Source of the DNA: a virus
Strand: one strand, 5' to 3'
DNA: 20,191 nt
IMG/VR virus record: IMGVR_UViG_3300030116_004199
Location: 1 to 20,191 of that record
The notes beneath the pieces were generated by a model, which ran no database searches, was not told the origin of the DNA, and saw only the letters and a list, made by a program, of their open reading frames with translations. Shown here piece after piece: positions 7,452 through 11,203 of this stretch (its first letter is position 1; each line of letters opens with the position of its first letter). The position numbers were made by a program, and so were the translations under genes.

Positions 7452-8327
7452 ATGAAGAAAAATCCAAACGTACTGCACAGAGATTTAGTAAACGGAAGAT
7501 GGTATTTTCCAGATAAGTATAAAGAGGATACATCTAAATGGTGTCCGTCTGTTACTACTATATTAAATGTACTTTCTAAGCCCGGCCTAGATGATTGGAA
7601 AACTAAAATGGGTCAATACCATAAAATATATTCCAGTGCACTAGCGTTCAGAGGAACTATTGTACATCATTTTTGTGAGCGTTTAGTATATGGTGACAAG
7701 GTAACAAAGGATGATATCAATCTTTACATATATAATAGTAATGAGCACAGATGGAAAATGGAGTTTACACAGGATCAATTAAATTATTCTTGCCGACAAA
7801 TGATCAAAGGTTTTGTCAAGTTTTGGGAAGAAAAAAATCCTACTGCACTAGCAGTAGAATATCCACTTTACCATGAATCAATTCCATATGCTGGACGAGG
7901 TGATATGGTTCTGGAACTCAATGATAAAAAGGGTGTAAAGATTAGAGTTTTAATGGATATAAAAACTGGTTTTGAAAACCCACAATATACATTACAAAAT
8001 TCAGCATATAAAAAAATATGGGACACATTGTTTCCAAGAGAAACTATTACCCATGTTGGAAACTTATACTTAAATGACAGATTTAGAACTGAGAGGGGGG
8101 TTTATAAGGTCAAAATAACCAAACCCAATATTGAGGCGTTTGAAGATTGTTATGATCTTTGGAAATGGAACAATACTCCCATGAATAAAACCCATCCAAT
8201 TCCAAAATTAAAAAACCCTCCACCAGAATTATTTGAATTAAAAAAGGAGAAAGAAGATGGCGTATCAAAAGCAACAGCCAAAACCACTACAACCCGGAGC
8301 CGGAAAGTTGTGGAAAAACAAGTATAA
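7452..8327 (+). CDS. RecB/Cas4-like PD-(D/E)XK exonuclease
   Basis: The 291-residue protein has the ordered active-site motifs of the RecB/Cas4 nuclease family: His72-His73 (GTIVHHFCE), GRGDMV with Asp151, LMDIK with Asp169 and Lys171, and Gln178/Gln182 just after. It would be a metal-dependent DNA exonuclease that makes single-stranded ends for phage recombination, working with the SSB-tailed protein encoded next. The last 25 residues are a Thr/Lys-rich tail lying in the part that overlaps the next gene by 71 bases. The start at ATG 7452 has no Shine-Dalgarno and directly follows the structured RNA, which is unusual for this window. Confidence 0.8.
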   Translation: MKKNPNVLHRDLVNGRWYFPDKYKEDTSKWCPSVTTILNVLSKPGLDDWKTKMGQYHKIYSSALAFRGTIVHHFCERLVYGDKVTKDDINLYIYNSNEHRWKMEFTQDQLNYSCRQMIKGFVKFWEEKNPTALAVEYPLYHESIPYAGRGDMVLELNDKKGVKIRVLMDIKTGFENPQYTLQNSAYKKIWDTLFPRETITHVGNLYLNDRFRTERGVYKVKITKPNIEAFEDCYDLWKWNNTPMNKTHPIPKLKNPPPELFELKKEKEDGVSKATAKTTTTRSRKVVEKQV

Positions 8328-8559
8328 AACCACAGCACCAGAAGATAAAATGAAACCAGACTATCAAGGTGAGGTTATTATTCCAGGTGATCAGTTAGGA
8401 CAGACTAGAAAGATTGCATTGTGGCACAACAAGTATGATGATGGTAATGTGCAACTTAACATTAAGATTAATGATGAGTTAAAAGAACAAACTCAACAAC
8501 AACAAAGACCACAGCCAGTCAATAATCAACAAAATGATGATATAGACTTGCCATTTTAA
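8257..8559 (+). CDS. Putative single-stranded DNA-binding protein with SSB-type tail
   Basis: ATG 8257 has a strong site, AAAAAGGAG, seven bases upstream, inside the exonuclease gene and in another frame. The 100-residue product has a basic N-terminus, a short strand-rich core (GEVIIPGDQL, KIALWHNKYDDGNVQLNIKIN), a Gln-rich linker and the acidic C-terminus DDIDLPF. That tip closely matches the DDDIPF tail by which bacterial SSB recruits partner proteins. A role in coating single-stranded DNA for recombination or replication follows. The core is shorter than a standard OB-fold SSB, so it could instead be a small accessory protein that only copies the tail. Confidence 0.65.
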   Translation: MAYQKQQPKPLQPGAGKLWKNKYKTTAPEDKMKPDYQGEVIIPGDQLGQTRKIALWHNKYDDGNVQLNIKINDELKEQTQQQQRPQPVNNQQNDDIDLPF

Positions 8560-8567
8560 ACCCTACT

Positions 8568-8876
8568 TTGCGGAATTTAGATGAGAAGAGAGAGAAGATA
8601 CAACAACTTATTGATGATCAAAGTCTTACAGACCAAGGTAAAGTTTTTAAGTTGTTGTTATCTCATTATGTAGGTGAGATAGATTGGCCAACCTATGTTC
8701 ATTATTGCGGAATATTGTACAGTTATTTTTTGGCTAATGCAAAGACACCATATGAGAGATCAATATTTGAAAAAGATATTGAATTTTTTAGAAACTTGCG
8801 GGACAACAACTATGACAAAAAAATTATTGAAGATTACTTTAAAAAGATTGACCGCAAAAAATTACAACCTTTTTAA
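8568..8876 (+). CDS. Hypothetical early protein, helical, 102 aa
   Basis: Unrecognised. The frame opens at TTG 8568, nine bases after the preceding stop; it has no clear ribosome binding site and no in-frame ATG nearby, so the start is uncertain. The product is mostly helical and rich in Lys, Asp and aromatic residues (HYVGEIDWPTYVHYCGILYSYF, then YERSIFEKDIEFF). Its last base is the first base of the next ATG (TAATG), coupling it to the replication initiator gene. Its position suggests a replication accessory role, for which the sequence itself gives no direct support. Confidence 0.65.
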   Translation: MRNLDEKREKIQQLIDDQSLTDQGKVFKLLLSHYVGEIDWPTYVHYCGILYSYFLANAKTPYERSIFEKDIEFFRNLRDNNYDKKIIEDYFKKIDRKKLQPF

Positions 8877-9661
8877 TGAAAAATCTTAATGTAAAAATTA
8901 ACATAAAAGATACTTTTTTGTGGGATGATCCAGATTTTATAAAGGCATATTTAGACCTTTGTTTTGCTACAAAATCTAGAACAATTACACAACTTTCTAT
9001 AGATTGGAAATGGTCTAGGCCAAGGGTCTACAGGTTCATTGAAAAGATAGGTAGTGTTACACCTAGCGTTACAACCAATGTTACAGGTGCCGTTACATCT
9101 ATCTACAATAATATAGAAGGTTACAAGAATGAGCGTACACTAGGTGTTACAAGTGATGTTACACAGGGTGTTACAGATTTAGAGGAAAACCATGAAAAAT
9201 CAAACAAAAAAGATTCTGCTTATATATATAATATATATAATAATATTAATAATATTAAATCTAATAGTATTAAATCTAATTCTATAAAGAAAAAAGAAAA
9301 TATTATTAACAATAAAGAATTGTTAATAATAAAAGAAAAAAGAAATGATTTTGTTGAAAAGCCAAAAGACCTTCAAATGGTCATTGAATATTTTACACAG
9401 CAAGGCATAGCTGATCCTACCAAGAACGCTAAAAAATTCTTTGACCATTATGAGGCAAATGGTTGGTATCGGGGTAAAACAAAAATTAAGCGTTGGCGTA
9501 GTTGTTTAACCCAATGGGACTTTGAAAAGAAATCTTCACATTCAAATGCTTATACCTATGAATGCCCTAGTTGTAAAAACTACAGAATTAAAAGTGAATC
9601 AAATCAATTATTTGCACATTGCCCAACCTGTGATCAAAGATTGGTTAAGGTATTTGTGTAA
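8876..9661 (+). CDS. Replication initiator protein containing the origin
   Basis: The 261-residue protein has a helix-turn-helix-like N-terminus (about 15-60, TITQLSIDWKWSRPRVYRFIEKI), a middle part of low-complexity sequence, and a C-terminal domain with FFDHYEANGWYRGKTKIKRWRSCLTQW, a motif common in phage replication (replisome organiser) proteins. It ends with a four-Cys zinc ribbon (CPSC at 230-233, CPTC at 249-252). The middle part is encoded by iterons and an extremely AT-rich tract, so its xxVT tetrapeptides and Asn/Ile/Lys-rich segment look like by-products of an origin inside the gene, as in lambda O. No helicase or helicase loader is visible nearby, so it presumably recruits host helicase directly. 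Confidence 0.75.
   Translation: MKNLNVKINIKDTFLWDDPDFIKAYLDLCFATKSRTITQLSIDWKWSRPRVYRFIEKIGSVTPSVTTNVTGAVTSIYNNIEGYKNERTLGVTSDVTQGVTDLEENHEKSNKKDSAYIYNIYNNINNIKSNSIKSNSIKKKENIINNKELLIIKEKRNDFVEKPKDLQMVIEYFTQQGIADPTKNAKKFFDHYEANGWYRGKTKIKRWRSCLTQWDFEKKSSHSNAYTYECPSCKNYRIKSESNQLFAHCPTCDQRLVKVFV
9056..9175 (+). repeat. GTTACA iterons at 12-base spacing
   Basis: GTTACA starts at 9056, 9068, 9080 and 9092, then at 9120, then at 9146, 9158 and 9170. A degenerate copy (CGTACA) at 9134 completes a second block of four. Spacing within blocks is exactly 12 bases. Each copy encodes Val-Thr, yet all eight perfect copies use the same two codons, GTT ACA, out of sixteen possible pairs, which argues for selection on the DNA. 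Confidence 0.8.
9301..9331. repeat. Perfect 13-base inverted repeat in the AT-rich origin tract
   Basis: TATTATTAACAAT (9301-9313) and its exact complement ATTGTTAATAATA (9319-9331) are separated by AAAGA. It lies at the downstream edge of the AT-rich tract. In single-stranded form it would make a stable hairpin and could serve as a primase or loader entry point. Confidence 0.65.
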
Positions 9662-10032: not shown

Positions 10033-10505
10033 ATGATCATGAACGTTTTAAAAAACATTTAATGAATTCACAAAAGTGTGTTTGGAAGGCTAGTAAAAAT
10101 TTAAGTGATCTGGGTTTACCAGTAACTATTGAGCCTACGTTTTTTTCAGATAGCTATGATAATAGACTTTACTACCAAGACAATGGTGATATTAGGATCA
10201 GTTTAAGGATTGAGGTCAAAGGAATTAACACTGACTTTACTTGCCAAGAAGACTTTCCGTATAGCCATATGTTTGTTTGTGCAAAGCATTCTTGGGACTT
10301 TGCTCATCCAAAACCTTTTGGTTATGTGATTTACAATAAAGATCAAACACATTTTGCATTTATACTAGGATCCACCTCCAAGAGATGGAGTGTTAATACT
10401 ATAAAAGATAAGCGTTATGATAACATGGTACAAAAAGTTTACAAGGTTTCACTAGATCAAGTTCTCTGGAATAAATATCCAGAAACCATAGAAGGTAATA
10501 AATGA
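10029..10505 (+). CDS. Hypothetical protein with possible PD-(D/E)XK-like core
   Basis: The 158-residue product is not a family I can name. A strand-turn-strand segment, GDIRISLRIEVKG (Asp54, Glu62, Lys64), has the D...ExK arrangement of the PD-(D/E)XK nuclease core, and a helix precedes it, so a nuclease fold is possible. The rest contains several aromatic residues and a Ser/Lys-rich stretch (GSTSKRW). It overlaps its neighbours by four bases at both ends (ATGA), so it belongs firmly to the early operon between a nuclease and a methyltransferase. Nuclease identity is tentative. Confidence 0.6.
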   Translation: MNDHERFKKHLMNSQKCVWKASKNLSDLGLPVTIEPTFFSDSYDNRLYYQDNGDIRISLRIEVKGINTDFTCQEDFPYSHMFVCAKHSWDFAHPKPFGYVIYNKDQTHFAFILGSTSKRWSVNTIKDKRYDNMVQKVYKVSLDQVLWNKYPETIEGNK

Positions 10506-11203
10506 GTTTATTACAAACTAAGGTGAAAGTTTTAGAGTTATTTGCTGGGTCAAGGTCTTTTACAAAAGTAGCGATGGAGCATGGTTGCAAAACTTATACA
10601 ACAGACATTGAACCCTTTGAAGGTATTGACCAAGTCTGTGATATATTTGATTTTGATGTTGATCTTGCCGAAAAATCATTAGGTGGTTGTCCCGATATTA
10701 TTTGGGCATCTCCACCATGTACTTATTTTTCTGTTGCATCAATGGGGTATCATTGGAATAAAAACGGAACACCTAAAACAAAACAAGCAGAATTTGGTAT
10801 TTCATTAATAAAACAAACAAAAAAAATTATTGAATATTTTAAAAATTTAAATAAAGAACTGTTTTATATAATAGAAAATCCAAGAGGCAAGTTAAGAAAA
10901 TTAAATCTTTTGGATAGCATGAATATACACACCGTAACATATTGTCAATATGGTGATAAGAGAATGAAACCTACTGACTTATGGTCAAATATAGAATTGA
11001 AGTTAAAACCTATGTGCAAAAATGGAGATGATTGCCATGAATCTGCACCAAGGGGAAGTAGAACTGGCACACAAGGTTTAAAAAACCCATTTGAAAGAAG
11101 TAAAGTTCCCGCAAAACTATGTTTTGATGTTTTGAGATTTGCTATTGACAACCAATACAAAAACAATTATACAAAGGAGAGTTTTTATGACACATCCAAA
11201 TAA
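10502..11203 (+). CDS. C5-cytosine DNA methyltransferase
   Basis: The 233-residue protein has the ordered motifs of C5-cytosine methyltransferases. Motif I for S-adenosylmethionine binding is LELFAGSRSFT (about 11-21), motif IV is SPPCTYFS with catalytic Cys73, motif VI-like is ENPRGKLR (Glu125), and QYGD (149-152) matches motif VIII. Motif VI reads ENP rather than the usual ENV. At 233 residues it is short, leaving little target-recognition domain. No restriction enzyme partner is obvious, so it is probably an orphan enzyme protecting phage DNA from host restriction or marking it. It overlaps the next gene by 17 bases. Confidence 0.8.
   Translation: MSLLQTKVKVLELFAGSRSFTKVAMEHGCKTYTTDIEPFEGIDQVCDIFDFDVDLAEKSLGGCPDIIWASPPCTYFSVASMGYHWNKNGTPKTKQAEFGISLIKQTKKIIEYFKNLNKELFYIIENPRGKLRKLNLLDSMNIHTVTYCQYGDKRMKPTDLWSNIELKLKPMCKNGDDCHESAPRGSRTGTQGLKNPFERSKVPAKLCFDVLRFAIDNQYKNNYTKESFYDTSK

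Follow-up and report, generated by a model that had tools for sequence, protein, structure and literature searches.

Positions 9056-9352 of the window, by which is meant the entire linear virus record of 20,191 bases analyzed here, very probably constitute a theta-type origin of replication embedded in the gene of its own initiator, within the part that encodes a disordered linker. The candidate initiator gene (8876-9661, + strand) is an open reading frame for a protein of 261 aa, which has been modeled with AlphaFold and which shares its C-terminal domain with phage initiators. Along this gene lie an array of GTTACA iterons, then an A+T tract, and then a hairpin near the 3' part of the tract. 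Two features of in-gene theta origins of the lambda or SPP1 kind are found here, repeats selected at the level of the DNA and an adjacent A+T-rich element; against such an assignment stand the 12-bp step of the iterons, which departs from the ~10.5-11 bp helical repeat of most relatives, the occurrence of this N-terminus with GTTACA in two lineages only, the lack of an extreme A+T tract in one of them (L249), the weak outcome of untargeted repeat tests, and relatives that share the C-terminal domain but have no obvious iteron (L265) or no helix-turn-helix (in the L254-L262 group). The general type, an origin within a gene, is known; the set of initiators and the iteron format presented below are not described in the literature searched.

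A mechanism can be proposed from this arrangement. The N-terminal helix-turn-helix of the initiator would occupy the GTTACA array with one molecule on each 12-bp unit, and the assembled complex, together with negative supercoiling, would open the adjacent A+T tract. The hairpin beside the tract may serve to mark the opened strand or to keep it in place, and the C-terminal domain would then bring in the replicative helicase or its loader. Because no DnaB was found among the window's proteins, and a search for DnaB (PF00772) in the records of ten relatives, which are fragments, likewise found none, the helicase or loader is probably that of the host.

The GTTACA array and its codons

As the initial annotation had reported, GTTACA occurs eight times on one strand (+) within the initiator gene, starting at 9056, 9068, 9080, 9092, 9120, 9146, 9158, and 9170 (span 9056-9175); no second cluster exists in the 20,191 bases. 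The claim that they are mostly 12 bases apart in two blocks holds, with this distance in five of the seven start-to-start steps (12, 12, 12, 28, 26, 12, 12). Block 1 (9056-9097) comprises the first four copies and block 2 (9146-9175) the last three, all at 12-bp steps, while the additional copy at 9120-9125 is off phase. Similarly, the claim that all Val-Thr pairs use identical codons is correct for seven copies, which read GTT-ACA in frame, but not for the one at 9120, which is out of frame and is read GGT-TAC-AAG (Gly-Tyr-Lys).

It could be argued that the repeats are simply a Val-Thr-x-x linker needed by the protein, with the uniform codons arising from codon preference or recent tandem duplication. 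The seven in-frame copies and the frequency of Val-Thr-x-x repeats in phage tail proteins would fit this explanation, which is nevertheless scarcely credible. GTTACA encodes only 3 of the 22 Val-Thr pairs in other genes of the window. When the initiator gene is recoded synonymously with the codon usage of the window, at least eight copies appear in 2 of 20,000 trials, and this test is conservative because the Val-Thr pairs themselves are retained. Untargeted tests of the window gene alone give p=0.03 for any 6-mer and p=0.105 for any 7-mer; here the A+T tract raises the null expectation, which weakens the tests. Furthermore, the spacers between the units are diverse (mean identity 0.26) around an invariant core, and such unrelated spacers exclude a recent duplication. 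For comparison, a codon-neutral search of IMG/VR for four Val-Thr-x-x units yielded many tail-fibre-like arrays. An array with an identical core was present in 39 of 120 loci, but most of these arrays had arisen in tandem fashion, with spacers resembling one another; spacers as divergent as those of the window around an invariant core were seen at only 3 loci. Judged by sequence, an invariant core with unrelated spacers looks like a series of binding sites.

A further argument against a purely protein-level repeat comes from an independent virus contig, L249 (the same as L245), which was found by its iteron pattern and then by profile. Its gene order matches that of the window (exonuclease, SSB-like protein, a protein of ~100 aa, initiator and, further on, resolvase), and its initiator is ~43% identical in protein, with an identical WSRPRVYRF helix in the N-terminal domain; the contig has a higher G+C content and a different codon usage. 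Each of its five Val-Thr pairs is nonetheless encoded by GTT-ACA, a combination expected from its own codon usage at 7% of such pairs (p 2e-6). Of the codons at the Val-Thr sites shared with the window, 10 of 10 are identical, compared with 12 of 44 at other identical four- or six-fold residues (Fisher 2.7e-5). The relative has therefore kept the GTTACA codons rather than exchanging them for others, which upholds the earlier proposal of selection at the DNA level.

The spacing is conserved as well. L249 keeps the 12-bp step, and the distance from the last unit of one block to the first of the next is likewise unchanged at 54 bp (9092 to 9146 in the window, 2541 to 2595 in L249), with 4 + 3 units in the window (plus the odd copy at 9120) and 3 + 2 in L249, so that the two differ by whole units. 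Both 12 and 54 bp exceed full turns of 10.5 bp by 1.5 bp; given this common remainder, each conserved step rotates the site to the same slight extent. The counterpart of the 9120 copy in L249 is CTTACC, and hence that copy may be due to chance. A second relative, L004, has no differences within the iterons, but with 97% protein identity it is too close to the window to add much. The combination of the window's N-terminus with GTTACA occurs in only two separate lineages, the window with L004 and L249.

The A+T tract and the hairpin

Directly after the iterons, the proposed unwinding element (9223-9352, + strand) is 90.8% A+T and is the A+T-richest 130-bp segment in the window; its G+C content lies below that of synonymous recodings (34/5,000). 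Direct repeats with periods of 12 and 15 are found at 9221-9280, and 9301-9331 is occupied by a perfect inverted repeat whose 13-bp arms (9301-9313 and 9319-9331) flank a loop of 5 bases. The latter is the longest perfect inverted repeat with a loop of 3-8 bases in the window, and shuffling the tract 500 times matched it once. These three elements, the nearly pure A+T stretch of about 130 bases, its direct repeats, and the 13-base inverted repeat, are all as the initial annotation described them. L249 does not have an extreme A+T tract; at the matching place (2740-2757) it has a smaller perfect hairpin with a 7-bp stem and a 4-base loop. The layout of iterons, A+T tract, and hairpin recurs in relatives.

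Runs of 7-8 TAN trinucleotides follow the iterons in the window (9238-9280), in L249 (2649-2675), in L263 (3840-3900), and also in L264. A reading of these runs as DnaA-trios gave recoding p values of 0.00-0.03 in these four but is not general in the set of initiators discussed below, and it is not claimed here because Asn, Ile, and Thr codons readily yield TAN runs. DnaA boxes were considered as well and set aside: a single TTTTACACA is present at 9391, with one at 8309 on the minus strand, and they form no cluster.

The initiator and its gene neighborhood

In the AlphaFold model, the protein is ordered at about residues 13-61 and 160-215 and in a C-terminal stretch, and it is disordered in the middle (61-159). 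The iterons and the A+T tract thus encode the disordered middle between two ordered domains. The N-terminal domain (aa 13-61, encoded by 8912-9058) is predicted to consist of three helices (pLDDT mostly 74-86), and residues 13-72 align in fold comparisons with many winged helix-turn-helix DNA-binding domains (Z 5-6). Because this fold is common, the likeness by itself does not give a function, and this domain is proposed to be the one that binds the iterons. The helical C-terminal domain (aa 160-215, encoded by 9353-9520), which is common to the initiator set and would contact the helicase or loader, matches phrog_15768 (E 1e-8) and phrog_28809 and carries the HYExxGWxxGKTKIKxW...W motif of the phrog_15768 type. 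A zinc-ribbon-like stretch (aa 226-257, encoded by 9551-9646) gives weak Pfam matches below the cut-off (E 0.0008-0.003).

The families that the protein itself matches, including these two PHROGs, have no annotated function; its connection to annotated initiators lies in the shared C-terminal domain. A fold search with the initiator gave no match with E <0.001, and the best viral match, an annotated replication initiator at E 0.009, is suggestive only. Relatives carry the C-terminal domain in fusion with N-termini of different kinds: replication initiation O-like (L266), DnaD-like loader (L265), and replisome organizer (L167). Among annotated phages that have the domain, the next gene encodes 'replication protein P' in Psychrobacter phage vB_PmaS_Y8A and a DnaB helicase in Vibrio phage 1.236.O. 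The domain is also present, along with the zinc-ribbon-like tail, on short proteins that have a coiled-coil-like N-terminus and no evident helix-turn-helix (L254, L255, L257, L258, L260-L262).

Since the N-terminus resembles helix-turn-helix regulators and clustered short sites can serve as operators, the array might instead be a transcriptional operator at which this protein or another regulator blocks or times transcription, with no role as an origin. This is quite unlikely, however. The array lies ~180 bp inside the coding region, away from a promoter, no GTTACA cluster is present upstream of the gene, and the C-terminal domain is common to initiators rather than repressors. In addition, the array is followed by an A+T tract and a hairpin, as at known in-gene origins.

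The gene belongs to a replication/recombination module, whose order is kept in L249, L263, and L264. It includes an exonuclease (7452-8327, + strand; phrog_298, E 2e-28), followed by an SSB-like protein of ~100 aa (8257-8559, + strand), which has no family match and was recognized by eye from its acidic tail, DDIDLPF. The SSB-like neighbor is conserved in L249, where it ends in DDDLLF. Directly upstream of the initiator, an all-helical protein of 102 aa (8568-8876, + strand) is conserved in the same position in L249 (about 45%) and is a possible replication accessory protein; a fold search of the PDB for likeness to helicase loaders found nothing significant. Downstream of the initiator are a PDDEXK nuclease, a gene without an assigned function, a methyltransferase, and a resolvase. 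Where the window has the DNA methyltransferase gene (10502-11203), the otherwise nearly identical L004 has an ORF of 94 aa (2410-2694), a mosaic exchange.

This setting bears on a further explanation, in which the array is a partition, packaging, or recombination site, resembling a centromere or a pac site, that happens to lie within the gene of a DNA-binding protein. Phased short direct repeats next to A+T-rich DNA do occur at centromeres and satellite sites, and the exonuclease, the SSB-like protein, and a Holliday-junction resolvase gene, which the module also contains, would be in keeping with such a site. However, the neighbors scanned include no ParA/ParB-type gene, the terminase genes are 6 kb away, and a self-encoded helix-turn-helix joined to an initiator-type C-terminus suits an origin better, making such a site very improbable.

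Cumulative GC skew, which had been suggested as a check of the origin, was uninformative. It tracks gene strand (the genes at 5.6-7.0 and 12.8-15.2 kb lie on the minus strand) and gives no origin signal; because of this dependence, and because the record is linear and covers 20 kb, it cannot serve as a test. Prophage scans of genomes for the host found no relative with A2 and one weak Bacillota fragment with A3.

Related initiators and known origins

Loci with the C-terminal domain were collected; removal of redundancy left 76 genes, for which ORFs from their own contigs served as controls, and a repeat was counted when a 7-mer with at least two G/C recurred on the same strand at a fixed distance. 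Recurrence at 11 bp was found in 37 of the 76 genes (49%) compared with 9 of 244 control ORFs (4%; p 5e-19), and synonymous recoding lowered the count to a mean of 5.1 and a maximum of 10. The corresponding numbers were 26/76 versus 6/244 at 22 bp, and 25/76 genes at 10 bp. The repeats are concentrated 30-180 bp before the code for the C-terminal domain; just ahead of this domain, the coding strand is rich in A (0.48) and poor in C (0.10). Perfect hairpins are present in the last 150 bp in 26 of 76 genes (34%) but in only 8 of 200 control segments (4%); some are built of iterons, and others lie between the iterons and the C-terminal domain as in the window. In contrast, the rule that the A+T peak always follows the iterons did not reach significance across the set (19 vs 14, with crude iteron calls).

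An 11-bp spacing corresponds to one helical turn and causes the iterons to be read in rotating frames. At least three phased copies of one word occur in 33 genes, and in 24 of these the copies fall in multiple reading frames (11-bp examples are L275, L126, L129, L263, L294, L295, L307, L309, and L343). A repeat in the protein cannot be the source of iterons that are read in more than one frame, and the rotating frames in most relatives therefore also argue against the protein-level explanation considered above. One pair, L263/L264, has the gene neighborhood and the C-terminal domain of the window but another helix-turn-helix and another iteron, GAATCAA, at 11-bp steps; the A+T tract of this pair is similar and rich in TAA/TAG. 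L265 has no obvious iteron.

These patterns lead to a broader hypothesis, for and against which the case is evenly balanced: initiators with this C-terminal domain would form a large modular set in which the N-terminal helix-turn-helix, the iterons, the A-rich tract, and the hairpin are exchanged as one cassette, with iterons usually 11 bp apart and the window carrying an unusual, in-frame version at 12 bp. In the open-access literature searched, in-gene iterons phased at 11 bp are not described for phage initiators as a group. If the interpretation given here is right, the origins of many uncultured and metagenomic phages could be found without experiments by scanning the linker code of initiators for phased repeats. 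It would also become testable how coding DNA carries a phased binding array, in rotating frames at 11 bp or in frame at 12 bp, and whether the helix-turn-helix domain and the iterons move jointly between phages.

For lambdoid phages, an origin lying midway through the initiator gene is established (PMC7466680), and the region in the window resembles the lambda origin in gene O in being placed mid-gene and in having iterons followed by an A+T-rich region, which is where opening occurs in lambda. Iteron number in lambdoid and Stx phages varies by whole units, 4 versus 6 (PMC7466680), a gain or loss like that between the window and L249. However, each iteron of lambda is an imperfect inverted repeat of 19 bp to which O binds as a dimer (PMC5043065, PMC7466680). 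Those of the window are direct repeats of 6-7 bp every 12 bp on one strand, and so are shorter and denser. Furthermore, the protein has no match to O-like families in Pfam, PHROGs, or NCBIfam, and no P-type helicase loader is found downstream in the window. Thus, the initial annotation of a lambda-like origin inside an initiator gene is supported as to the origin, by the codons of L249 and the C-terminal domain shared with initiators, but not as to a relationship with O or the iteron type; the lambda iterons with which it compared the phase are 19 bp and inverted rather than 18 bases.

SPP1 oriL, which lies within gene 38, consists of direct repeats and an A+T-rich unwinding element and is bound by gp38 (PMC6316719). 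The repeats and A+T-rich element inside the window's candidate initiator gene are similar in layout. SPP1 also has its own loader (gp39), a DnaB-type helicase (gp40), and a second origin (oriR), none of which is seen in the window. In plasmids, the iterons are direct repeats, each recognized by a monomer and generally spaced in register with the DNA helix (PMC5043065). Like those of P1 and RK2, the iterons of the window are direct repeats beside an A+T-rich region; unlike them, they follow one another at 12 bp and form part of the initiator gene.

A parallel in sequence is provided by initiators of the replisome-organizer/DnaD-like type (phrog_4880, phrog_10469; L167, L183, L235, L226), some of which share the C-terminal domain (L167). 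In some members, GTTACA or GTAACGTTACA repeats in the linker-coding DNA are followed by an A-rich stretch, as in the window, but the N-terminal domain of ~120 aa (phrog_4880 type) does not match the 50-aa helix-turn-helix of the window. The common GTTACA core may be a case of convergence or of a shared mode of recognition. More widely, GTTACA or GTAACGTTACA cores were observed in the linker-coding DNA of initiators with unrelated-looking N-termini (these four and L190, L298, L299, L301, L320, and L336). Clusters of GTTACA-containing repeats in both orientations also occur outside long ORFs on other virus contigs (L142, L176, L177, L234, L244, L164), where they would be either operators or intergenic origins.
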